DNA from: Chloroflexota bacterium
Lineage (GTDB): Bacteria > Chloroflexota > Dehalococcoidia > Tepidiformales > Tepidiformaceae
Assembly: GCA_026705605.1 (NCBI GenBank)
Contig: JAPPAK010000006.1
Coordinates: forward strand, 124,001-188,000
Direction: 5' to 3'
Length of the DNA: 64,000 bases
A program made the position numbers and the translations under genes. The notes beneath the pieces were generated by a model. That model ran no database searches. It was not told where the DNA came from and saw only the letters and a program-made list of their open reading frames with translations. Shown here piece by piece: positions 9,739 through 49,383 of the stretch. The stretch's first letter is position 1; each line of letters starts with the position of its first letter.

Positions 9739-10606
9739 AGCCGAACGTTCCGGTGCGTCCCGCCCTGCGCCTACTCCGTTCTTCGAGGCGCTGCACGCCC
9801 AGCGCTACGAGAGGCAGGGCTTGATTCGTGAGTACGAGGAGCGGTTCAACAGCAACCTAATCGTCTTTGTTGGAGAAATCACACTGGAGTCCACTACCTA
9901 CTTCGAGGAGTTGCTCCACGATGTGACCCCTGACCAGGATCTGCACCTCTTGATCGGCTCGGCCGGTGGAGATGGGGAGACAGCACTAAGAATCCTCCGT
10001 GCGGCTCAGTCGCGCTCCCAGGAATTTGTGGTGATCGTTCCTGACTGGGCGAAGAGCGCAGCTACTCTGATAGCTCTTGGTGCCCACAAGATTGCGATGG
10101 GGCCGATGAGCGACTTGGGACCGATCGATCCTCAGTTTCGGGTGGGCGACAAGCTCGTTGCCGCGAAGGACATCATCGCGGCGGTTGAACAAGCGACCGA
10201 AGAAGTGCGCGCCTCTCCGGAGACTTTCCCGCTGCATGCCGCGCTCCTTGGTGATGTAAGTGCCATCTTGGTAGAGCGTGCTCGGCAGGGGATGGGACGT
10301 ACCGAGAGTCAGTTGCGTGAGGCATTGCATGCCAACCCTAGTCGCGCGGACGAGGAAGTCACGGAGCTGATTGGCCAGTTGAAGGAGCCCCTCATTGAGG
10401 GCGCGCAGTCACATGCCGCCCTGTTTGGCCAGAGGGAGGCAGGGCGTACGAAACTGCCCGTAGATGCGCTCGATCCGAAGGGGCAGCAGTGGGATAGCGT
10501 GTGGCGCCTCTGGACGCGATATGTGGCGGCAGGAGCGTCGGCTTTTGGAAGTCCCACGGTTTACGAGGGTCGACGGGTGTCCCACATCGTTGTGAAACAG
10601 AGCTAG
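9731..10606 (+). CDS. Serine dehydrogenase proteinase (SDH_sah) family, ClpP/SppA fold
   Basis: 291 residues from a TTG start; the frame has no better start and overlaps the preceding small gene. The core has the ClpP-crotonase layout: LLIGSAGGDGETALRIL (oxyanion-type glycine loop near residue 75), then VPDWAKSAATLIALGA with the candidate catalytic Ser near residue 109, then GPMSDLGPIDPQF near 125-135. This order matches the SDH proteinase family and bacterial SppA relatives. No signal peptide or membrane segment is seen, so it is probably cytosolic. Substrate unknown. Base composition is lower in GC than in the neighbours, hinting at acquisition. Confidence 0.75.
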   Translation: MSEAERSGASRPAPTPFFEALHAQRYERQGLIREYEERFNSNLIVFVGEITLESTTYFEELLHDVTPDQDLHLLIGSAGGDGETALRILRAAQSRSQEFVVIVPDWAKSAATLIALGAHKIAMGPMSDLGPIDPQFRVGDKLVAAKDIIAAVEQATEEVRASPETFPLHAALLGDVSAILVERARQGMGRTESQLREALHANPSRADEEVTELIGQLKEPLIEGAQSHAALFGQREAGRTKLPVDALDPKGQQWDSVWRLWTRYVAAGASAFGSPTVYEGRRVSHIVVKQS

Positions 10607-10634
10607 GCGGGTCTCCTGGTCCGGGCTTTGACGC

Positions 10635-10844
10635 ATGCTCTCAGTTAGGTGGGACGCGGAAGTGAAGCTCTTGTTTGGCAACATCTCCGGTATCGCAGGG
10701 GCGCACACGCAGGCAGCCACCTTCGACGAGCTTTGGGACAACCTAGGTGAGGTTCTCGAACTTCTAGGTGAGCAAGGTGAGCCCATCAATAGTCTTGGAT
10801 CCTGTACGTTGCTAACCCCGCGGCAGGGGCGCCTCCCATCGTGA
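10635..10844 (+). CDS. HicB-like (UPF0150 fold) small protein
   Basis: 69 residues. VKLLFGNISGIAGAHTQAAT followed by FDELWDNLGEVLELL fits the HicB/UPF0150 pattern, a strand with a glycine turn and then an amphipathic helix with spaced Glu and Leu. In HicAB systems this is the antitoxin. No HicA-like gene is found on either side, so it appears to be an orphan. The last four bases overlap the GTG of the next gene. The family call rests on pattern only. Confidence 0.6.
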   Translation: MLSVRWDAEVKLLFGNISGIAGAHTQAATFDELWDNLGEVLELLGEQGEPINSLGSCTLLTPRQGRLPS

Positions 10845-11476
10845 CTGAGCCCGTCCGCCTCTACCTGGTACGCCATGGACAGGCGCGCGCCGACGACAAC
10901 TCGTACGGGCCCGACACGCCCCTCTCCCCCCTCGGACGGCGGCAGGCCGAGGCCGTTGCCGTCGCGCTTGCGCACGCCGGGCTCGCGGCCATCTACGCGA
11001 GTCCGATGCGCCGTGCACGGGAGACGGCCGAGCCGCTCGCTCGCGTGACCGGCCTCGAGGTTCAGGTCGACGACCGGCTAAGCGAGTTCGAGATCGCGGA
11101 CTGGGACCCCGACGACGAGACCCACGAGTACGACTGGGCCTGGAGGCCCGAGCACACCGGTCTCCCCGGTGGCGAGAGCATCGGCGCCTTCGCCGAGCGT
11201 GTCGGTGTCGCTTGCGACGACATCGTCACGCCCCACACCGGCGACTCAGTCGCCATCGTCTCCCACTCAGGGACGGGCGATGCCATCCTGCGCTGGGCCA
11301 TGGGCCTCCCGAGCGACAGCCCCTGGTTCCACGAGTTCGACTTGCCGAACGCGGCCATCGTCGAGCTCAGCGTGTGGCCAGAGGGCCGCCACAGGGACGG
11401 CCCGCCCCGCTACGCCGCCATCCGGCGCGCGCCTAACCTCGACCACCTCCCCGACTCCCTCCGTACCCCCTACTGA
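10841..11476 (+). CDS. Histidine phosphatase (phosphoglycerate-mutase family)
   Basis: 211 residues from GTG. LVRHGQAR near residue 8 is the RHG motif with the phosphorylated His; SPMRRARETAEP supplies the second Arg; VSHSGTGDAIL supplies the second catalytic His near residue 145. LPGGESIGAFAERV is a usual segment of the broad-specificity members such as GpmB, CobC and PhoE. The substrate cannot be told. No cobalamin genes are nearby to favour CobC. Overlaps the HicB-like gene by 4 bases. Confidence 0.88.
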   Translation: MTEPVRLYLVRHGQARADDNSYGPDTPLSPLGRRQAEAVAVALAHAGLAAIYASPMRRARETAEPLARVTGLEVQVDDRLSEFEIADWDPDDETHEYDWAWRPEHTGLPGGESIGAFAERVGVACDDIVTPHTGDSVAIVSHSGTGDAILRWAMGLPSDSPWFHEFDLPNAAIVELSVWPEGRHRDGPPRYAAIRRAPNLDHLPDSLRTPY

Positions 11477-11492
11477 GGGGACGGCCCCGGCG

Positions 11493-11924
11493 CTAGCTCT
11501 CGGCTGGACCCGCGCGCCACGCCCGCAGCGCCGTCGAAATCGCAAGGATTGCCACGCCCGTGTCGATGAGCCGCCAGTACTGCAGGTCGTGCTCCACGCC
11601 GCTGCGCCCCCATTCCCACGTGAACCAGTTCCAGAAGAAGAGGAGCGCGAAGAAGGCGGTGGCGTAGAGGCTGGCCTTGGCCGTGAGCCACGACCGCGTC
11701 ACGGGCGCACCCGGGTCGTGGCCTGCCGCCCGGCTCTCGTGACCGACGATCGCCAGCATCAGGACCAGCGCGACCGCCATCAGCCAGGAGATGATCCTCC
11801 AACCGTCGGATAGCGCGTCGGTAGAGTCGTAGAAATTCTGGAGGACGAACTGCGCGGCCGTGCCCACGCCCACGACCCCCAGGTAGATCGCGACCAGCTT
11901 CCGGAATGCCTGCATCGTTGCCAT
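11493..11924 (-). CDS. Small integral membrane protein, unknown
   Basis: 143 residues with four likely membrane helices near residues 8-30, 42-62, 83-103 and 117-135. Loops contain GHESRAAGHDPG and EWGRSGVEHDLQYWR. Trp and Phe are frequent in helix 3 (ATAFFALLFFWNWFTWEW). No family is recognised. The start ATG is preceded on the minus strand by AAGGAGGAGG-type sequence, which makes the start secure. It is convergent with the phosphatase gene. Confidence 0.7.
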   Translation of the reverse strand: MATMQAFRKLVAIYLGVVGVGTAAQFVLQNFYDSTDALSDGWRIISWLMAVALVLMLAIVGHESRAAGHDPGAPVTRSWLTAKASLYATAFFALLFFWNWFTWEWGRSGVEHDLQYWRLIDTGVAILAISTALRAWRAGPAES

Positions 11925-12101
11925 GCGGTGCCTCCTCCTTGCCCCCGTGCGCCAAGCCTACACATCGCGGGCAGGGGCTCGCCTTGTCCGAGCAGGGGCG
12001 GGGTACGATGCGGCAGTCCACAACGCGACCGAGCGGAGCGAGTTGATGGAGCGAGCGCGAAAGCAGACGAGGGACCGAGCGACCTAAGGGAGCGAGCTGA
12101 A

Positions 12102-13208
12102 ATGAAAGTCGACGACGTGTTTCTGACCACGTTTGGCTGGGACGTCCCCCACGGCGCCTATCCCGGCTCCTCCATCGCCTACGGCGGGGAACGCCAGATG
12201 GGCGTGCTTACCATCCGCACCGACGAAGGCGCGGAAGGGCACGCCTTCCTCGGGTCCGCCAGCCGCGACGCCACCATGGACGCGGAGGCGTTGCTGACCC
12301 TCCTGAAGCCCGTCGTGATGGGCGAGAACCCGCTCGACATCGGGCGTTTCTGGCACGCCATGTGGAAGCGCCGTCGAGGCGTCTCCTTCCGCGCGATCGG
12401 CGCCGTCGATGTCGCCCTCTGGGACCTTGCCGGGAAGGTCGCGGGACTGCCCGTGCATCGATTGCTCGGCTCCTGCCGCAGCTCGGTCCCCGCCTACGCC
12501 AGCTCCGCCGCCCTCCCCTCTCCCGAGGCGTACGCCGAGGAGGCGAAATCGTTTCAGGACCGCGGCTGGACCGCCTACAAGATCCACCCCGACACCCGCC
12601 CGCTCGTCGACATCGACATCTGCCGCGCCGCGCGCGAGGCCGTCGGCCCCGACATGCGGCTGATGCTCGATTCGGTCTGGGCCTATAGCTACGAGGACGC
12701 CGTCCGCGTGGGACGCGCCATCGAGGACTTCGACTACTACTGGTACGAGGATCCGCTCGAGGAGGAGGACGTCTACGGCTACGTGAAGCTGCGCCAGAAG
12801 CTCGACATCCCGATCATGGCCACGGAGTTCGCCCCCGCCAGCTTCTACGGGATGCAGCAGTGGGTGCAGCAACAGGCCACCGACATCCTGCGCGGCGACG
12901 TGGCCGTTTCCGGCGGCATCACCGCCCTCCACAAGATCGCCAACCTCGCGGACGCCTTCCGCATGAAGTGCGAGGTCCACCACGGCGGCAACTCCCTCAA
13001 CAACGTGGCCAACCTGCACGTCATCATGGCCGTGAACAACTGCGAGTACTTCGAGGTGCTCCTGCCCGACGCTGCCCAGAAATACGGCCTTGTGAACGAC
13101 ATCGAGGTCGACGCCAACGGGCTCGTCCACGCCCCCGAAGAGCCCGGCCTCGGCTACGAGATCGACTGGGACCTCGTCCGCGCCCGCCAGATCAGCGAGC
13201 TGCGCTAG
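12102..13208 (+). CDS. Enolase-superfamily enzyme (mandelate racemase / muconate lactonizing type)
   Basis: 368 residues from ATG with GGGAGCGAG upstream. The N-terminal capping domain leads to AIGAVDVALWDLAGKVAGLPVHRLLG, a hallmark of the MR/MLE group. YKIHP near residue 160 carries the Lys of the K-x-H/K position. LMLDSVWAY, YEDPLEE and ATEFAP supply the Asp, Glu and Glu metal ligands. HHGGNSLNNVANLH near residue 290 matches the C-terminal His segment of the mandelate racemase subgroup. It probably dehydrates or epimerises a sugar acid or hydroxy acid; substrate not predictable. The leader has repeated GGAGCGAG words. Confidence 0.88.
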   Translation: MKVDDVFLTTFGWDVPHGAYPGSSIAYGGERQMGVLTIRTDEGAEGHAFLGSASRDATMDAEALLTLLKPVVMGENPLDIGRFWHAMWKRRRGVSFRAIGAVDVALWDLAGKVAGLPVHRLLGSCRSSVPAYASSAALPSPEAYAEEAKSFQDRGWTAYKIHPDTRPLVDIDICRAAREAVGPDMRLMLDSVWAYSYEDAVRVGRAIEDFDYYWYEDPLEEEDVYGYVKLRQKLDIPIMATEFAPASFYGMQQWVQQQATDILRGDVAVSGGITALHKIANLADAFRMKCEVHHGGNSLNNVANLHVIMAVNNCEYFEVLLPDAAQKYGLVNDIEVDANGLVHAPEEPGLGYEIDWDLVRARQISELR

Positions 13209-42048: not shown

Positions 42049-42121
42049 GGTGGTCAGTGGTCGGTCGTCGGTGGTCGGTGGGGGCATGGGGACCGATCAC
42101 CGGCCACCAACCACCGACCAC
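42049..42121. repeat. Dispersed GGTGGTCGGTG-type repeat, copy 1
   Basis: Upstream of the CDP-alcohol transferase start, runs of GGTGGTCAGTGG and GGTCGGTGGG face complementary runs (GATCACCGGCCACCAACCACCGACCAC) across a short loop, so the segment can fold into a long imperfect hairpin. Related copies occur near 42240-42265, 44751-44808, 48112-48205 and 56461-56503, always in gaps between genes. Confidence 0.65.
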
Positions 42122-42270: not shown

Positions 42271-43479
42271 CTACTGGACGTCCTGGGTGGCCGCCACGAA
42301 GCCCTCGCACACGACACCGTCGTCGTCGTCGTCGATCTCCAGGGGAACGCGGTAGTCGGGGAAGCCCTGACCGAAGCCTACGGAGCCGACCACTTGCTTG
42401 ATGTGTTGCGAAGCCTCCTGGCATGACCGGAAGGCAGTCGAGGTGAGGACGAGCTTCTGGTGGTCGGCCCACTCCTCGAACGTCTCGTAGAACTTGGCGA
42501 GGGAAATCTCGAAGACGCTCTCGAATGCGACGTTAACGTCCAGGCCGGCCTGGGTGCTGCTGTAGAACCGGAGCCAGTCGGCGAACTCGCCGTGCTCGTG
42601 GATGGTGTACAGCATCACGAGCGTCATCATGTTGTCGCTGGCCTGATCCAGGCGGATGTCCCGCGCCCGCTCGTAGAAGAGCACACGGCGGAAGCGGTCC
42701 TCCGTGATGACCGGAACCTTCCCGGTGGCGTAGTGGCTCGCGAAGTAGTCGAACGCGCCATGGCCCGCCCACTCCGGCTTGACCTCGCCCGCCCCCGCGG
42801 CGCGAACGAACCACTCCCACGCGAGCGCGAGCCGGTCGGCCCGGCATGCCGGGGTGAAGAACATGTGCTCGCCCTCCTGGAACGAGCACTCGTCGGGCAA
42901 TTCCTCGGGGCGGTATCCGAACACCTCTTCGTACCGCGTGAACATGCCGTTCCGGGAGTGGGCGATGTTGATCGTGATGTGGCCGATGTGGGTAAGGCCG
43001 TATTCGTCCAGGGCGAAGTCGATCACCCGGCGCATGTCGGTCACGATGTTCCGCCCAGCTTGGGGCGTGTCCTCCATGCCCCGCACTTCGCAGCACGGCC
43101 CCGCAATCGGTGTCTCGTCATCCGGCACTGCTTCGGGGATGGGGCGTGTGGGCCTCGTGGAGCCGATGCTGGCTTCCGGCACTTCCACCTCGACCGAGAC
43201 GGGCACGTCGACCGTCACGGTGTCGCTCAGCTGGAACCGTCCCGACTGGCTCAGCCCGCTCATGTCGAGCACTTCGCTGGTGACCCAGGCATCGGGTCCG
43301 GAATCCTCCGGACGCGTGCTGATGAACAGCTCCCCGTCGGAGATGCGGCGCCAGACGCGTACGTCCACGCTCGCCGTCGTCTCGATGGTCTGCGTGGCCG
43401 CGAATGCGCCGAATGAGCCACCGATGGCGATGGCTCCGATCAAGGCGGCGATGATTGTCCGGTTCACGCGACCAACCAT
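42271..43479 (-). CDS. Secreted protein: VRVWE domain, gluzincin-like domain, excalibur motif (copy A)
   Basis: 402 residues. An N-terminal signal or anchor (IIAALIGAIAIGGSFGAFA, 8-27) is followed by TASVDVRVWRRISDGELFISTRPEDSG, the domain shared with three other window proteins. After a Pro-rich linker comes CCEVRGMED and a long helical domain with the plan of peptidase_MA-type gluzincins (a W-x-x-GHGAFDYFASHYATG segment, then AFESVFEISLAKFYETFEEW) but without a HExxH motif. The C-terminus, RSCQEASQ to DDDDDGVVCEG, is a calcium-binding excalibur-type motif with a Cys pair. Function unknown; probably exported. Close relative of the next gene. Confidence 0.75.
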   Translation of the reverse strand: MVGRVNRTIIAALIGAIAIGGSFGAFAATQTIETTASVDVRVWRRISDGELFISTRPEDSGPDAWVTSEVLDMSGLSQSGRFQLSDTVTVDVPVSVEVEVPEASIGSTRPTRPIPEAVPDDETPIAGPCCEVRGMEDTPQAGRNIVTDMRRVIDFALDEYGLTHIGHITINIAHSRNGMFTRYEEVFGYRPEELPDECSFQEGEHMFFTPACRADRLALAWEWFVRAAGAGEVKPEWAGHGAFDYFASHYATGKVPVITEDRFRRVLFYERARDIRLDQASDNMMTLVMLYTIHEHGEFADWLRFYSSTQAGLDVNVAFESVFEISLAKFYETFEEWADHQKLVLTSTAFRSCQEASQHIKQVVGSVGFGQGFPDYRVPLEIDDDDDGVVCEGFVAATQDVQ

Positions 43480-43522
43480 ACGCCTGCCCTTTGCGGGTTA
43501 CAGGCTCCGACCTGCAGCAGTC

Positions 43523-44689
43523 CTAGTCTCCCGGCAGGTAGCCGTCGCACACGAGGCCGTCTCCGTCGCGGTCCCGCTCCGTCGGGACGCGATAGTCCGG
43601 ATAACCGGCGTCGACGCCCGGTGTGCCCCCCTGCAGTCTCAGGGCCTGTGAAGCCTCGGCGCACGAGCCGTAGGCGCTCGTCACGAGAAGGAGCCGCTCG
43701 TTGTCGGCCCACGTTTCGAATGCGGTGTAGAACTCGTCCAGCGACTCGTCGAACGCGTCCGCGAAGGCGCTGGCCGCGTCCTCGCCCCCCACGACGCGCT
43801 GGTAGAACGCGAGCCAGTCGTTGGTGACGCCGTACCGCTGAATGGCGTACAGCATCGCCGTGATCTTCAGTTCCTCGCTCCCGCGGCCCCTCTTGAGACT
43901 CCCTGGCTCCTCATAGAAGAGGGCCCGCCGGGAGCGGTCCTCGTCCAGGGCAGGGGGCTTCCCCACAGTCGCATTCGTCAGGAAGTGGGTGAGGGTCGCG
44001 TCTCCGATCCAGCCCGGGTCCACGGTGGCCGCGCCTGCGGCGCGTGCGAACCACTCTTTCGCGATGGCGCCCCTGTCCGTCCGGCACAGGGGGGTGAAGA
44101 ACATGTGCTCACCCTCCTGGAACGAGCACTCGTCCGGCAATTCGTCCGGGCGGAAGCCGAAGGCGTCCTTGTACCGCTCGAGCACGCCGCTCGGCGTGAA
44201 TGAGATGTTGATCACGATGGGTCCGCTGTGCGTCAGGCCGTAGGTGTTGTTGCCCAACCTGATGACTTCTTGCATCGCCGTAAGGATGCGATCCTGGGCA
44301 GCGGGCACGTCCTCCATGCCTCGTACCTCGCAGCACGTGCCCGGCTCGGGCTCTGGCGTTGCCGTCGGTGCTTCCGTTGGCTCTTCCGTTGGCTCGATGG
44401 GGTCCGGAACCTCGATCTCCACCTCGATCGGTACCGTCACCACCACGAAGCTGCTCTGGTAGAAGGTTCCTGCGTCGTTCAGGTTCATGTCGAGCGGCGC
44501 GTCGTCGTGGGTGGTCCACTCGCCCCCTTCGGGGCGCGTGCTCAGGTAGAGATTCCCGGTGCGGACGCTCTCCCAGACGCGCACCTCCACGTTCGCTTCC
44601 GTCTGGGTCGTACGGGTGGCGGCAAACGCCCCCAGCGCGCTCCCGATGGCGATGGCGGCGATCAACGCGACAATAATTCCGTTCTTCAT
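43523..44689 (-). CDS. Secreted protein: VRVWE domain, gluzincin-like domain, excalibur motif (copy B)
   Basis: 388 residues from ATG (MKNGIIVALIAAIAIG...). The same order as copy A: signal or anchor; ANVEVRVWESVRTGNLYLST then RPEGGEW; a Pro/Thr/Glu linker with PTEEPTEAPTATPEPEP; CCEVRGMED; a helical domain in which the expected HExxH helix reads IAKEWFARAAG, so no zinc site; then AFADAFDESLDEFYTAFETW; then an excalibur end, YGSCAEASQ to DRDGDGLVCDGY. A 43-base gap separates it from copy A, so they form a tandem duplicate in one transcript. Confidence 0.75.
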   Translation of the reverse strand: MKNGIIVALIAAIAIGSALGAFAATRTTQTEANVEVRVWESVRTGNLYLSTRPEGGEWTTHDDAPLDMNLNDAGTFYQSSFVVVTVPIEVEIEVPDPIEPTEEPTEAPTATPEPEPGTCCEVRGMEDVPAAQDRILTAMQEVIRLGNNTYGLTHSGPIVINISFTPSGVLERYKDAFGFRPDELPDECSFQEGEHMFFTPLCRTDRGAIAKEWFARAAGAATVDPGWIGDATLTHFLTNATVGKPPALDEDRSRRALFYEEPGSLKRGRGSEELKITAMLYAIQRYGVTNDWLAFYQRVVGGEDAASAFADAFDESLDEFYTAFETWADNERLLLVTSAYGSCAEASQALRLQGGTPGVDAGYPDYRVPTERDRDGDGLVCDGYLPGD

Positions 44690-44750
44690 GGCAAGGACCA
44701 TACCTTAGTCATGCCATTGCCTGTTGACTACCCCGACACCTGCTCGGCGT

Positions 44751-44808
44751 CCGTGGGCGGTGATCGTCGGCCTGTGATCGGTCCGCCCCACCGATCACCG
44801 AGCACCCG
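44751..44808. repeat. Dispersed GGTCGGTGATC-type repeat, copy 3
   Basis: GGGCGGTGATCGTCGG and TGTGATCGGTCC face CCACCGATCACCGAGCACC, which can form a hairpin. It lies in the 565-base gap between copy B of the excalibur proteins (minus) and the Ig-like surface protein gene (plus), so upstream of both. Confidence 0.55.
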
Positions 44809-44896
44809 GTTAACCTTTCCCCACCCCCGGCGTTATACCCCCTGATTACATGCACGCGCGTGGGCGTCCGTGGGCGCAGCGCGTGGGCGGAACAGG

Positions 44897-44925
44897 TTGA
44901 CCGTGGGGTATGCGAACCGTAGGCT
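44897..44925 (+). promoter_or_regulatory. Candidate sigma-70 type promoter of the surface-protein gene
   Basis: TTGACC (44897-44902) and TAGGCT (44920-44925) are separated by 17 bases and lie about 330 bases ahead of the TTG start at 45255. The -35 is a close match to TTGACA; the -10 is weaker. If used, transcripts would carry the structured leader described next. Confidence 0.4.
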
Positions 44926-45082
44926 CCGCTCCACTTCTGTCCGCTTCTGTACCACGGAGAAAGGAGGCCGCTTTCCCCCGCTGAGCGAGGCGCGCGCGCC
45001 GGTCTAGAGGGCCCGCGCGAGAGACGTGAGACGCGAGGGTTTCACCTGACGATTACCACGCACAGGGGAACGGCCCGGACCC

Positions 45083-45209
45083 GCCTGGAGCCATGCGCCA
45101 GGCACTGGCGGCAGAACGAGCGGGCGGCCCCACAGAGGAAGCGGAGGATCCCTCCGCAACCGCCCGCACGATCCGGGCGAGTCCGGAACACGACCGGCCC
45201 GCACGGGCC
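45083..45209 (+). other. Structured 5' leader of the Ig-like surface protein gene
   Basis: Hairpin GCCTGG (45083-45088) with CCAGGC (45098-45103). An outer stem GCGGGCGG (45120-45127) with CCGCCCGC (45160-45167) encloses an inner stem GCGGAGG (45141-45147) with CCTCCGC (45151-45157). A last hairpin pairs GGCCC (45196-45200) with GGGCC (45205-45209). All lie between the candidate promoter and the start codon, in a region with no gene. The nesting suggests a folded RNA, perhaps a regulatory or stabilising leader. Confidence 0.5.
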
Positions 45210-45254
45210 ACAGACAAGAACGAATCAACACCCAAGTGAAAAGGGGTACTAGAT

Positions 45255-47201
45255 TTGAAGAAGAACTTCATTAGCGCCATCGCCGGCTGGAAGTCCGCCG
45301 CGCTCCTGGCGCTTGTAGCAATGGTGGCGGCCGTCGCTTTCAGCGGCGTCCTCACCAGCACCCAGACCGCCGATGCGCAGACTGACGACTCAAGCGACAA
45401 GAGCACGGCTCCTGGCGGGACCGTGCAGCTCCTCTTTACCAGTGCCAGTGACACCAACGACCGGTTCGTCATTGCCTCGACGAGTACCGGCACGGCCACG
45501 TTCTCTGCCAACGGTTCAACGAGCATCCGCTGTCGGGACAACAGCAACGCGTCTCCGTCGACCCCCGGTTGTGACACCAACGGGGCCGACTCCGGAGTTC
45601 AGCTGAGCGTCAAGGTGGATGAAGACTCGCCCCTTGGTGAGATCTACGTCCAGGTCGGTACGTTTAATCGAACCACGGGCGAGTTCGATGTCGCGGGCAC
45701 GGTCATCATCACCGTTGCTGCGCCGGATCCGCCTACGGCGATCCAGCTTGTCGGCCTCCCGCCTGCCAGCATCAACATGGATGGCTCCGCGCCCCGGCAC
45801 ATCTCGGTGCGCGTCGTCAAGGCCAACGGCTCCATGGTGGGTGGCGTGTCACTGAACGTCATCACGACCGGTGGCGCCCTCGAAACCGATGGCTCCGGCA
45901 ACTGCCAGGCGGATGACTCTGGTGCCGGCACTGCGGACCAGCTCGACAACGGACGAGCTTTCTGCACGGTCTCCACGGTTGTGGATGCCGACACCAACAC
46001 GGACGGCAACCAGCCTGGCCCGGCCAAGATCAGCCTGTTCGGCACCGGCGTGCCGGGGTCGGCCAAGGTGACGTTCTCGGTCGCCCAGCCGGCGCTGACG
46101 CTGGAGACGTCCGTCGTTCTCCACGGTCCCGTTGACAGCATCACGGCCGACGCCGAGCAGTCGTCCATCCAGATCGGCGGCTCGACGTTCATCGTTGTGA
46201 CCATCAGCGATGCCGCGGGCAACCCGATTCCGAACGAAACCGCTGCCGTGACCACCAATGTCTTTGGTGGCCAGGTGATCACTGCTCCGGAAACGCCGCA
46301 AAGCGTTGCCGCAGTCAAGGTGGTCTCCGCCGCGGACGTCAACAAGGAGAGGAACCCCCGGACAGTTACCGCTGCCCTGGGTGATATCCCGTCCTGCGCA
46401 ATCCACGATGCTGTGGCTCAGGTCCTTGAGGCCGATGCAACCGAGACCAATCCGGCAACGGAGGGTCAGGCGGCGTCGACCGGTACGGACTCCAAGGGCC
46501 GCTGCGTCATCCAGATCCGTGCTCCGCAGGGGCCGCCTCTCGGTGGCGATCCGGCGTCCGCGACTCGCGGAACGCATACGGTGAGCGTCCGGGCGGACGA
46601 TCTCGCTGCGAAGCCTGATCCCAAGGCAGTCGTCGTTGAGATCCATGTCGGTGGCGCGCCTGCCAGCATCGAGACCGATGCTCCCGCAAGCGTTGACTCG
46701 CTGAGCTCCACGACGATCACCGTCACCGTCCTCGATGACGAAGGTGTCCGCGTGGGCTCCGTCGGCTACTCGATCGACCAGATCGAGGGCGAGGGCAAGA
46801 TCACGTCCGGCGAGACTGACGCGGACTCGCGTACGGCCGATGGCCAGGCGAAGTTCACCTATCGCGCCCCGCGCGAGGGTACGGCGCTCTTCCTGATCAC
46901 CGTGCCGGTCGGACCGTCCGAGATCTCGCACACCATCGAGGTCGCCATCGGTGCTGCCCCTGAGGCCCCGTCGGCAACCTGGAACAACGACCTCGTCTCG
47001 GGTCAGAACCTCGTCGTCTGGAACGGCGCCGACGGTGCTGATCCTTCCGACGGCGCTGCCGACGGTGTGACGGCCATCTGGTCGTACAACACCGGCAGTG
47101 GCTCCTGGGACGGCTACTTCCCGTCCGCTGCTGACGTGCCGGGTGGCAACACCCTGACATCGCTCAGCAACGGCCAGGCCTACGTGGTCATCGTCGAGTA
47201 A
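45255..47201 (+). CDS. Large secreted Ig-like (bacterial Ig type) surface protein
   Basis: 648 residues from TTG, with AAAGGGG upstream; the N-terminus MKKNFISAIAGWKSAALL then LALVAMVAAVAFSG is a signal peptide, with likely cleavage after TADAQ. The body is rich in Thr, Ser, Val, Gly and Asp, and repeats beta-sandwich units such as PPTAIQLVGLPPASINMDGS, VDSITADAEQSSIQIGGST and PASIETDAPASVDSLSSTT, each followed by TxxVxDxxGNPI-like segments, a Big_1-type pattern. No C-terminal anchor is seen: it ends NGQAYVVIVE. Probably a major envelope or S-layer-type protein. Codon use is less GC-skewed than its neighbours, as in highly expressed genes. Confidence 0.75.
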   Translation: MKKNFISAIAGWKSAALLALVAMVAAVAFSGVLTSTQTADAQTDDSSDKSTAPGGTVQLLFTSASDTNDRFVIASTSTGTATFSANGSTSIRCRDNSNASPSTPGCDTNGADSGVQLSVKVDEDSPLGEIYVQVGTFNRTTGEFDVAGTVIITVAAPDPPTAIQLVGLPPASINMDGSAPRHISVRVVKANGSMVGGVSLNVITTGGALETDGSGNCQADDSGAGTADQLDNGRAFCTVSTVVDADTNTDGNQPGPAKISLFGTGVPGSAKVTFSVAQPALTLETSVVLHGPVDSITADAEQSSIQIGGSTFIVVTISDAAGNPIPNETAAVTTNVFGGQVITAPETPQSVAAVKVVSAADVNKERNPRTVTAALGDIPSCAIHDAVAQVLEADATETNPATEGQAASTGTDSKGRCVIQIRAPQGPPLGGDPASATRGTHTVSVRADDLAAKPDPKAVVVEIHVGGAPASIETDAPASVDSLSSTTITVTVLDDEGVRVGSVGYSIDQIEGEGKITSGETDADSRTADGQAKFTYRAPREGTALFLITVPVGPSEISHTIEVAIGAAPEAPSATWNNDLVSGQNLVVWNGADGADPSDGAADGVTAIWSYNTGSGSWDGYFPSAADVPGGNTLTSLSNGQAYVVIVE

Positions 47202-47304
47202 CCTGTCCGCAACCAACCCCACCCCTGACCCCGCCTCGCGCGGGGCCGGGGGCCGGGGAAGGTCCGGGCTTTAGCCATACGGACAGACAAAGGAGCAAAA
47301 CGGA

Positions 47305-48051
47305 ATGACCAAGACTCTCAAGTGGCTGGGTGGAGGCGTCGCGGCGGTCATGCTGCTCGGCCTCGCCGGCCTCTTCAGTGGAGAGGTGGCCGAGGCCCAG
47401 CCGTCTGGCCCGCCTCACCGCTTCGCCGGCTCCGTCTCCGTCGACGGTGAACCCGCGGCCGCTGGCACGTCGGTCACCGCCGTCGTGAACGGCGCCGAGT
47501 GTGGCTCCGCTACCGTCATCGAAAGCTCTGCCGGGTCGACCTACGCACTGGACGTACCCGACAGCTGCGCCGATGACGGCGACGACGTCCACTTCCACGT
47601 CGGTGGCTACGAAGCCGAACAGCACGCGCATTGGTCCGGCGGTGGCCGAACCGATCTCGACCTGACGGCCTCGTCGATGATGCCGGACATGCCGGAAGAC
47701 ATGGACGACATGGACGAGTGTCCCGACGACATGGGCGACATGGGCGACATGGGCGAGGGCGACATGCCCGACGAGCCCGATGAGCCGTCCGAGCCTGACG
47801 AGCCCGCAGAGCCCATGGATGACATGGACGATATGGGCGACGACATGGCCGACGACTGCCCGACCGACGACATGGATGACATGGACGACATGGATGACAT
47901 GGACGACATGGACGACATGGCTCCGGAAGCCGGCGACACCGGCACCGGCCTCACCACGACCAGCACCAGCACCTCGCTGGCTGCCATCCTCGGCGTAACC
48001 GCCCTCGCAATCATGCTGGGCAGCTACACCTTCGCCCGCCGCCGCCGCTAG
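47305..48051 (+). CDS. Secreted anchored protein with (Asp-Asp-Met) repeats
   Basis: 248 residues. Signal peptide (WLGGGVAAVMLLGLAGLFSG, cut near AEAQ), then a small beta domain to residue 115 with four Cys in two groups (GAECGS, DSCADD). Residues 120-215 are made of DDM/GDM and DEP repeats, ending in a run of DDM units. The C-terminus has a Thr/Ser stretch, a membrane helix (SLAAILGVTALAIMLGSY) and RRRR, a sorting-signal layout. The acidic Met-rich track could bind metal. It is preceded by AGGAG and is probably co-regulated with the surface protein upstream. Confidence 0.75.
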   Translation: MTKTLKWLGGGVAAVMLLGLAGLFSGEVAEAQPSGPPHRFAGSVSVDGEPAAAGTSVTAVVNGAECGSATVIESSAGSTYALDVPDSCADDGDDVHFHVGGYEAEQHAHWSGGGRTDLDLTASSMMPDMPEDMDDMDECPDDMGDMGDMGEGDMPDEPDEPSEPDEPAEPMDDMDDMGDDMADDCPTDDMDDMDDMDDMDDMDDMAPEAGDTGTGLTTTSTSTSLAAILGVTALAIMLGSYTFARRRR

Positions 48052-48079
48052 TTTCTAGCGCCGTCAACGGCACAACCCG

Positions 48080-48107
48080 AAAGGGGCCCTCCGGGGCCCC
48101 TTTCTTG
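48080..48107 (+). terminator. Intrinsic terminator
   Basis: Arms AAAGGGGCC (48080-48088) and GGCCCCTTT (48095-48103) pair perfectly and run into TTTCTTG. It lies 29 bases after the stop of the Met/Asp-repeat protein gene. A standard rho-independent terminator, and one of the few in the window. Confidence 0.85.
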
Positions 48108-48111
48108 TTGT

Positions 48112-48205
48112 GTGGTGGTCGGTGATCGGTGGTCGGTGATCGGTCCCCGCCGCCCCCCATCCTGTATCGTCCCCACCGACCACCAACCACCGACCACCGA
48201 TCACC
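48112..48205. repeat. Dispersed GGTCGGTGATC-type repeat, copy 4
   Basis: Two direct copies of GGTGGTCGGTGATC on one side of a C-rich spacer face CCACCGACCACCAACCACC and GACCACCGATCACC on the other, giving a long potential hairpin. It ends directly at the ATG of the next gene, so it occupies its ribosome-site position. No clear GGAGG-type site lies between the repeat and that ATG. Confidence 0.65.
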
Positions 48206-48802
48206 ATGAAGAACTGGATCATCGCCGCGCTCGTCGCCGCCATCGCGCTGACGCTCGTCGCGGGGGCCGTCGCGCAGTCGCGCACGGCCCAGCCGACGGC
48301 GCGGGTCCAGCTGCGCATCTGGGAGGAGTACGAGCACCCCCACAAGAACTGGGTCAGCATCCGCACCGACGGCGCCCGCTGGGCCGCCGACACCCCCCGC
48401 CTCCACTTCGACGACGGCGTCACCCCCGACGGCCGGTACCGCTACAGCGAGCTCACCATCGATACCGCCGTCCCCGACCCCGTCCCCACCGGCCTGTACG
48501 TCACCGACACGTCCTGCTACCGCAGCCAGTTCAACGCCTTCCTCACGCTCAACGGCTACATCCACAACGTCACCAGCGCCACCGTCCGCGACGTGACCGT
48601 CACGGCCGCCCTGCGCGAACGCACGGGGGTGGAGGTCGCGCAGGCGTCGGCCATCGCCCTGCACGGCATCTCGCCCTGGGGCCAGCGCGCGCTGGCCATC
48701 AACTTCTTCAGCGCCCTCGGCCGGCAGGGCACGTGCCACGTCGTCGCAATCGAGTACGACGCCACCGTCCGCTACGACGAGCCCCAGGCGGCCGCGGAAT
48801 GA
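48206..48802 (+). CDS. Secreted VRVWE-domain protein C
   Basis: 198 residues. MKNWIIAALVAAIALTLVAGAV is a signal or anchor. Then ARVQLRIWEEYEHPHKNWVSIRTDG and the PLHFDDGVTPDGRYRYSELT region matches the VRVWE domain of the excalibur proteins A and B. The C-terminal half (GYIHNVTSATVRDVTVTAALRERTGVEV... VAIEYDATVRY) looks like an FxLYD/DUF3426-type beta sandwich and is shared with the next gene. Two Cys (DTSCYRSQ and GTCHVV) may pair. Overlaps the next gene by 4 bases. Confidence 0.7.
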   Translation: MKNWIIAALVAAIALTLVAGAVAQSRTAQPTARVQLRIWEEYEHPHKNWVSIRTDGARWAADTPRLHFDDGVTPDGRYRYSELTIDTAVPDPVPTGLYVTDTSCYRSQFNAFLTLNGYIHNVTSATVRDVTVTAALRERTGVEVAQASAIALHGISPWGQRALAINFFSALGRQGTCHVVAIEYDATVRYDEPQAAAE

Positions 48803-49383
48803 TCAAGAACGCCGTCATCGCCGCCCTCGCCGTGGTCCTGGCGCTCTCGATCGCCGGGGTCGTCGCCCAGACGCAGCGCACGGCCACGGTCCAGGTGCGC
48901 ATCTACGAGGACATCGAGGATCCGACCGTGCACTACATCTCCTCCCGCCCCCACGGCGGCGAGTGGACCGAGTCGCGCGAGGTGCCGCCCCTCAACGACG
49001 GCTTCGTCCAGGCCGGGAAGTACCGCTTCGTCAACGTCTGGGTCGGCGCCACCATCCCCCAACCCATCCCCCCCGCCGTCGAGCTGTTCGACCTCGAGTG
49101 CACCGACCAGGCCGGCCCGGACGGGTCCCACCGCATCCTGCGCGGCTCCCTCCGCAACCTCGCGAACGCGACGCTGACGGAGGTCACGATCACCGCCGCC
49201 CTCGTGAACGAGGACGGCGTCGAGGTCCTGCAGGTCACGGACGGGATCACGGGCGCCATCGCGCACGGCGGCGAGCGGCCGTTCACGGTCAGCTTCACCG
49301 GCGCCCCCAACGTTGCCGGAACCTGCCCCGTCGTCAGCATCGACTACACCGCCACCGTCCGCTACGAAGTGCCGATTCCGTAG
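48799..49383 (+). CDS. Secreted VRVWE-domain protein D
   Basis: 194 residues. [24 protein letters not shown] is the signal or anchor; ATVQVRIYEDIEDPTVHYISS then RPHGGEW is the shared domain; RILRGSLRNLANATLTEVTI and VVSIDYTATVRYEV form the beta-sandwich half with a Cys pair in similar places as in protein C. Start ATG overlaps the stop of C. Both probably act in the envelope together with A and B. Confidence 0.7.
   Translation: MIKNAVIAALAVVLALSIAGVVAQTQRTATVQVRIYEDIEDPTVHYISSRPHGGEWTESREVPPLNDGFVQAGKYRFVNVWVGATIPQPIPPAVELFDLECTDQAGPDGSHRILRGSLRNLANATLTEVTITAALVNEDGVEVLQVTDGITGAIAHGGERPFTVSFTGAPNVAGTCPVVSIDYTATVRYEVPIP

Follow-up and report, generated by a model that had tools for sequence, protein, structure and literature searches.

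SLH, LysM, and CWB2-type modules are small and non-catalytic, often repeated, and occur on many unrelated exported proteins; repetition is common among wall-binding modules. Here, we describe a domain that we liken to them, in a 64,000-nucleotide stretch of DNA from a Chloroflexota bacterium of the Tepidiformaceae, class Dehalococcoidia (GenBank assembly GCA_026705605.1, contig JAPPAK010000006.1, positions 124,001 to 188,000). This whole stretch is called the window below. The domain is present in one or two copies, usually in front, on dozens of unrelated exported proteins of this bacterium and of some related Dehalococcoidia, and it probably holds them at the surface. Four of these carriers, A to D, are in the window, and their domain copies were located by a whole-genome profile search:

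42271..43479, minus strand: protein A, 402 amino acids; signal peptide, one domain copy, body without HExxH, Excalibur-like C-terminal end
43201..43374, minus strand: domain copy of A, E = 2.0e-17
43523..44701, minus strand: protein B, 392 amino acids; architecture as in A, to which it is 49% identical
44429..44596, minus strand: domain copy of B, E = 3.3e-21
48206..48802, plus strand: protein C, 198 amino acids; signal peptide, one domain copy, FxLYD-like domain
48299..48475, plus strand: domain copy of C, E = 1.8e-20
48799..49383, plus strand: protein D, 194 amino acids; signal peptide, one domain copy, FxLYD domain; its start overlaps the end of C
48883..49059, plus strand: domain copy of D, E = 4.2e-20

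The initial annotation of this locus described a four-member family with a shared N-terminal region that matched no named domain. All four open reading frames (ORFs) exist, and an alignment of A to D shows the common motif, V-x-V-R-V-W-(E/Q)...(I/V/L)-S-(A/T)-R-P-x-G-G-x-W, in a domain of about 58 residues that stands as a single copy behind a Sec-like signal peptide in each protein. For B, the lower coordinate (43523) holds, but the upper one is 44701 from the first ATG; the 44689 first given corresponds to an in-frame Met further along that ORF. A profile built from the four proteins and iterated over stretches of the same genome gave them full-sequence E values of 3.7e-17 to 1.4e-22, compared with 0.25 for the best non-family ORF in the same six-frame set. 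Genome-wide, it found 31 copies at E ≤ 2e-4 (30 at E ≤ 6.1e-17 and one at 1.7e-4), followed by one match at 0.002 and two near 0.5; these values are partly circular, because the profile was trained on these copies. A profile-free search with protein B alone returned 30 matches at E ≤ 1, 29 of which touched its N-terminal region. Together, the profile separation and the search with B alone indicate that the motif is not a chance resemblance. This is a real, unnamed domain of about 58 residues common to A to D, and its copy family is about eight times larger than first noted, with 31 copies in this genome, many of them in tandem pairs, and 3 to 47 per genome across the genus.

Conservation and architecture were examined in 90 carrier proteins of four genomes (G000, G001, G004, and G005). 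The sample has 31, 38, 40, and 38 of their 31, 45, 40, and 47 copies, respectively; 7 copies of G001 and 9 of G005 were left out, and some incomplete or frame-broken rows were kept (L134:3228 and L147 among them). In profile numbering, R22 is present in all 147 copies, whereas W28 is found in 99%, W8 in 95%, and S20 in 95% of the copies that have a residue there. At least two copies are present in 56 of the 90 carriers and one copy in the other 34.

We searched for known relatives with 30 of the 31 copies of the genome, omitting one degenerate internal copy from the alignment. None of the 30 passed a Pfam cut-off (best E = 0.021, a single member) or an NCBIfam cut-off (best E = 0.075, again a single member). 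PHROGs gave no consistent match; phrog_15867 reached E = 0.0016 in one of the 30 copies, and the other three families had best values of 0.11 to 0.37. Against PDB sequences, the best match of the domain profile was 2laa, titled beta/alpha-amylase, at a non-significant E of 0.17. No description of the domain or its motif was found in the literature searched, with InterPro and CDD outside that search. Therefore, the first impression that no named domain covers this region was borne out by the profile and the 30 copies in Pfam, NCBIfam, PHROGs, and PDB sequences.

An AlphaFold model of the tandem pair of a relative, L063, was made from 19 sequences (23 tandem rows less two near-duplicates and two with broken frames). 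It is all-beta with four strands per copy, with a mean predicted local distance difference test score (pLDDT) of 94.8 and a predicted template modeling score (pTM) of 0.88. Foldseek returned 658 matches to the PDB at E ≤ 10, none at E ≤ 0.001, and a best value of 0.11. The model suggests that the tandem is an unusual arrangement, predicted from an alignment of fairly similar sequences and within a class, small beta domains, that is hard for fold searches. A confident model with no significant match among solved structures makes the domain a fair target for structure determination.

Some fainter resemblances were set aside. The best BFVD match of the model was an uncharacterized protein of Serratia phage PS2 (E = 4.2e-3), and a tail-fiber match spanned 54 columns (E = 0.17, probability 0.96); both are too weak. 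Two viral-contig loci showed 31% identity, but profile E values were 2.9 to 3.6 at that place and at best 0.073 to 0.085 elsewhere in the loci, and we took them as chance because of these weak scores. An archaeal pilin N terminus on B (Pfam E = 0.21) and a KxYKxGKxW signal on C (Pfam E = 0.66) were both below the cut-off. For a plasmid origin, a megablast search of PLSDB with the locus gave no match. Protein B had no relative in the genome-contig collection.

In 82 of the 90 carriers, the first copy begins within 70 residues of the assumed start. For 80 of these 82, the 45 residues ahead of the domain contain 14 consecutive residues of strong hydrophobicity. Overall, 87 of 90 carriers showed a hydrophobic stretch at the N terminus, compared with 33 of 350 other long ORFs taken from the same DNA stretches, a crude contrast in which starts were picked for hydrophobicity and the controls were arbitrary long ORFs. 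An A-x-A-like site is ahead of the domain in 87 of the 90, and a lipobox in none. Other anchors are rare: one carrier has a C-terminal hydrophobic segment, four an internal one, and one an LPxTG-like motif. By these heuristic rules, most of the 90 sampled carriers look exported and have no other recognizable anchor. The N-terminal segment had been called a signal or anchor; by motif rules it looks like a cleavable Sec signal.

The bodies behind the domain are diverse. Pfam identified 68 families at E ≤ 0.001 on the 90 carriers, among them NHL (9), LRR_1 (6), Trypsin_2 (6), RCC1_2 (4), Ank_2 (2), Big_5 (2), and Peripla_BP_6 (2), and NCBIfam added FxLYD (7, at E ≤ 0.001) and HtrA/DegP-type models (6). 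In this genome, the carriers include ankyrin (L010), RCC1 (L018), leucine-rich-repeat (LRR)-like (L017), and PA14 with lipase-like (L014) proteins, three adjacent NHL proteins (L015), and an alpha-2-macroglobulin of 2,115 residues (L013). Five of ten carriers of this genome in one Pfam scan had no match at E ≤ 0.001. Ten carriers of G004 include trypsin-like, LRR, NHL, and periplasmic-binding-protein-like bodies, and two of them had no match. Two nearby carriers in L109 (3471-5123, minus strand, and 10597-12252, plus strand) look alike, one having a Peripla_BP_6 body by Pfam. Two other carrier bodies (L017:3900-6338, plus strand, and L013:1660-4692, minus strand) are metallopeptidase-like, with HEYVH and HEVAH, a zinc motif that A and B lack. 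Bacterial macroglobulins of the kind seen in L013 are often lipoproteins. The carrier there (L013:4733-11077, minus strand) and those of L162, L163, L164, and L165, which together span three families of the class, are of the alpha-2-macroglobulin type, with the tandem in front and no lipobox in the first 100 residues.

Taken together, a Sec-type leader, non-catalytic repeats at the N terminus, bodies unrelated to one another, and the lack of a further anchor look like a retention or adhesion module. Our favored reading, which falls just short of an even chance, is that this small all-beta module has no catalytic role and keeps proteins exported by Sec in the cell envelope. Export by Sec and cleavage by signal peptidase I would leave the module at the mature N terminus, where it would bind a wall component (peptidoglycan, an attached polymer, or the surface layer [S-layer]). 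The body would then stay at the surface of a bacterium presumed, by analogy with its relatives, to be without an outer membrane. Cultivated Tepidiforma are described as monoderms with peptidoglycan and an S-layer in the available text of PMC10284905. For carriers without a lipobox or C-terminal anchor, the module would supply the hold, with Arg22, Trp8, Ser20, and Trp28 as fold or binding-site residues. The part on display would be a degenerate body with an Excalibur-like tail for A and B, and an FxLYD domain for C and D. None of the nine genus genomes, and 1 of 18 genomes examined, had an SLH anchor.

Several points weigh against retention. Only hydrophobicity and motif rules were used to call signal peptides and anchors. 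In 8 of the 90 carriers the first copy is internal or C-terminal, an arrangement that retention allows but does not predict. The two L109 carriers have no ATP-binding cassette (ABC) permease in adjoining ORFs, by eye, and so do not indicate a need for tethering. The ligand, a wall or S-layer component, is putative. MraY was found in 19 of 19 clear carriers versus 166 of 393 class genomes (88 of 226 genera), which fits a wall ligand, but the association is confounded by kinship because non-carriers of the same families have MraY and the clear carriers are confined to three families.

The position of the domain could also be explained if it aids folding, stability, or export, as a small N-terminal cap that helps large exported beta or repeat proteins to fold or resist proteolysis and has no specific ligand. 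The domain is N-terminal in most carriers, their bodies are unrelated, and the tandem model is compact and of high confidence, all as a cap would have it. However, the near-invariant R22, W28, W8, and S20 in 147 copies suggest a shared site, though perhaps a structural one, and C-terminal pairs, such as the one carried by L011, do not fit a cap. We consider this explanation improbable.

The chief competing reading is that the domain faces a host. In that case, it would bind a sponge glycan, collagen, or the cell surface and bring the body to sponge cells or matrix, aiding persistence of the symbiont. The bodies give this some appeal. Ankyrin and LRR are repeat classes discussed as host-interaction proteins of sponge symbionts in the available text of PMC8163846, which also reports that few lineages encode secretion systems for such proteins, and NHL is discussed likewise in that of PMC10947273. 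The available part of PMC10284905 calls Tepidiformaceae prevalent in sponges. Among 11 named assemblies, two jk18x bins follow the naming of Ircinia sponge metagenome-assembled genomes in PMC9531527 (from the part available), one of them being a probably misbinned Gemmatimonadetes bin; the bin name p16x is absent from that same part. The hosts sampled in PMC8163846 were Ircinia, Coscinoderma, and Aplysina, and bin codes are not printed in the portion of its text available. However, an isolation source is established for only a minority of carrier genomes, so that the sponge link is putative; we presume a sponge origin for the IRC, COS, APA, and SB06xx bins. The amylase annotation of 2laa, at its non-significant E value, would suit a glycan ligand, but the fold search does not back a carbohydrate-binding fold, and macroglobulin, HtrA-like protease, and FxLYD bodies are not specifically host-directed. 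We consider a host-facing domain possible but doubtful.

Retention and host interaction can also be combined in a lineage-specific surface-display system. A new small beta fold would then serve as a common N-terminal tag with which putatively sponge-associated Dehalococcoidia export, through Sec, and keep on their surface a large set of repeat proteins of eukaryote-like type, proteases, and macroglobulin. In this way, they would display host-interaction proteins with no need for a dedicated secretion system. We regard this as rather unlikely. It is an open question by what route sponge symbionts deliver or display their eukaryote-like repeat proteins. The available text of PMC8163846 notes few secretion systems in these lineages and considers delivery by the usual secretion pathways unlikely. 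The domain offers a shared point of entry to dozens of exported proteins, otherwise unconnected, of an uncultivated lineage. If it keeps such proteins on the cell surface, a recombinant domain of about 130 residues would allow that question to be tested directly.

Of 60 relatives, all nine genomes of the genus carry the domain, with 31, 45, 19, 28, 40, 47, 31, 14, and 3 matches. At E ≤ 0.001, there was no match in the 27 genomes drawn from other genera of its family, nor in the 24 that represent other families. We extended the analysis to the class and the phylum, scoring up to 16 candidates per genome, so that copy numbers are lower bounds and weak carriers may be missed. In the class, matches were patchy, in 20 of 393 genomes and 7 of 226 genera. 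Carrier genera were the own genus, g278 and g310 of family f2, and g38, g314, and g353 of f21, with one borderline match in f35 (E = 2.6e-4, one copy) that was excluded from the clear carriers and whose genome is outside the MraY-positive listing. Among 400 genomes of the phylum, only this genome and the borderline one matched, presumably because few genomes of carrier genera were drawn. Two copies on one 5.1-kb contig of a 4.4-Mb Gemmatimonadetes bin probably reflect misbinning, and we did not read them as spread to that phylum.

Four macroglobulin carriers in f2 and f21 have bodies 56 to 66% identical to that of this genome, each with a tandem in front. Conservation of tandem and macroglobulin across families indicates that the architecture is old or moved as a unit. 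Tandem copies have a mean identity of 0.67 within a protein (56 pairs) versus 0.46 between proteins, and in the five loci examined the pairs are 87 to 97% identical in DNA. We tested which copy in the genome was nearest to each of 112 copies: 48 were closest to their own mate, 45 to a copy at the same position in another protein, and 19 to a copy at a different position. This split indicates that duplication or conversion in place is common and that spread of pairs is common as well. Such mobility raises the question of whether the domain has much function of its own, or is mainly the record of a recombination-prone 5' cassette, made up of signal peptide and domain, that moves from gene to gene and duplicates in tandem. 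The greater likeness within proteins, the 48 own-mate copies, and the 87 to 97% DNA identity would all be expected of such a cassette. However, R22 in every one of the 147 copies implies selection, as does a tandem kept before those macroglobulin bodies across three families. A cassette of little function is therefore very improbable, and we return to envelope retention in considering what the module would display in the window. The C-terminal parts of A to D gave these matches:

42304..42369, minus strand: Excalibur-like calcium-binding end of A, weak (PF05901, E = 0.083, 13.7 bits, missing the cut-off of 22)
43547..43666, minus strand: Excalibur-like calcium-binding end of B (PF05901, E = 8.3e-4, 20.1 bits, missing the cut-off of 22)
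48542..48679, plus strand: FxLYD-like domain of C (NF038353, E = 4.9e-4, 19.9 bits, below the cut-off of 23)
49138..49308, plus strand: FxLYD domain of D (NF038353, E = 6.7e-7, 29.1 bits, over the cut-off of 23)

The bodies of A and B had been described as gluzincin-like. We aligned 13 members of this body family from the genus, including A and B (16 places were found, and 3 partial matches were left out). Cysteines and aromatic positions are conserved among them, and the acidic end D-x-D-x-D/R-x-x-x-C is largely retained, but HExxH is present in none of the 13. A Pfam scan of A and B gave no peptidase match. AlphaFold modeled B as mixed and mostly helical at low confidence (mean pLDDT 57.2), with only two sequences covering the body in an alignment of both window proteins, a further two pieces from the window, and 9 single-copy pieces (one near-duplicate and two broken pieces were omitted). 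This model had no PDB match at E ≤ 0.001. Without HExxH, a confident model, or a PDB match, an active gluzincin in A and B is unsupported and the gluzincin label fails, with the fold itself predicted at low confidence. The beta-sandwich ascribed to C and D has a name: FxLYD is the C-terminal domain of D and, by a match just below the cut-off, probably that of C.

Between the two pairs of carriers is another exported protein:

45255..47201, plus strand: exported protein without the domain, immunoglobulin (Ig)-like by eye; one weak Pfam match, to glycoside hydrolase family 2 (GH2) C-terminal domain 5, below the cut-off

The order A/B, Ig-like protein, C, D is also found in G001 and G003, is mirrored with a partial A/B in G006, and is partly kept in G005, G002, and G008. 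This comparison was made from match coordinates, with the C/D places of G003 and G006 being those of G449 and G448, which have identical match lists. The Ig-like protein has at its end (residues 570 to 648, approximately) a module of some 65 residues, around "NLVVW...GQAYVVIV", found again in many exported-looking ORFs. The protein was matched in 27 of 60 relatives at E ≤ 1e-5, outside the genus mainly over its end, and the matched ORFs include some of about 1,000 to 1,800 amino acids and, within the genus, of 3,004 to 3,177 amino acids. Between the Ig-like protein and C, an exported-looking ORF (47305-48051, plus strand) has Met/Asp-rich DDM repeats and a C-terminal hydrophobic segment followed by RRRR. 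Intergenic ACCGACC-like repeats with a seven-base step and in opposite orientations are found at 42050-42121, 44790-44805, and 48115-48204 (13 matches with at most 2 mismatches versus 0.14 expected), and one cluster ends just before the start codon of C. Promoter- and terminator-like sites at the locus were no commoner than in shuffles.

How, then, does the domain compare with known systems? The wall anchor SLH (PF00395) is absent from the Pfam matches of the 30 copies, and no Pfam model of SLH, LysM, CWB2, or similar wall-binding modules matches the domain there. SLH and LysM contain helices, whereas the new domain is predicted to be all-beta. The gluzincins (Peptidase_MA clan) resemble B in the mixed, mostly helical body predicted for it at low confidence, but A and B differ in having no HExxH, no Pfam peptidase match, and no fold match. 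FxLYD (NF038353) is the C-terminal body of D and probably of C and is separate from the shared N-terminal domain. The protein of 2laa, presumably a starch-binding domain of CBM25, is also a small domain of an exported enzyme, and it is locally alike over 24 profile positions (18 to 41), but at an E value that is not significant and with no significant fold match for the tandem model. The domain is a new family, outside the known families tested, and it may work like the known surface-retention modules.

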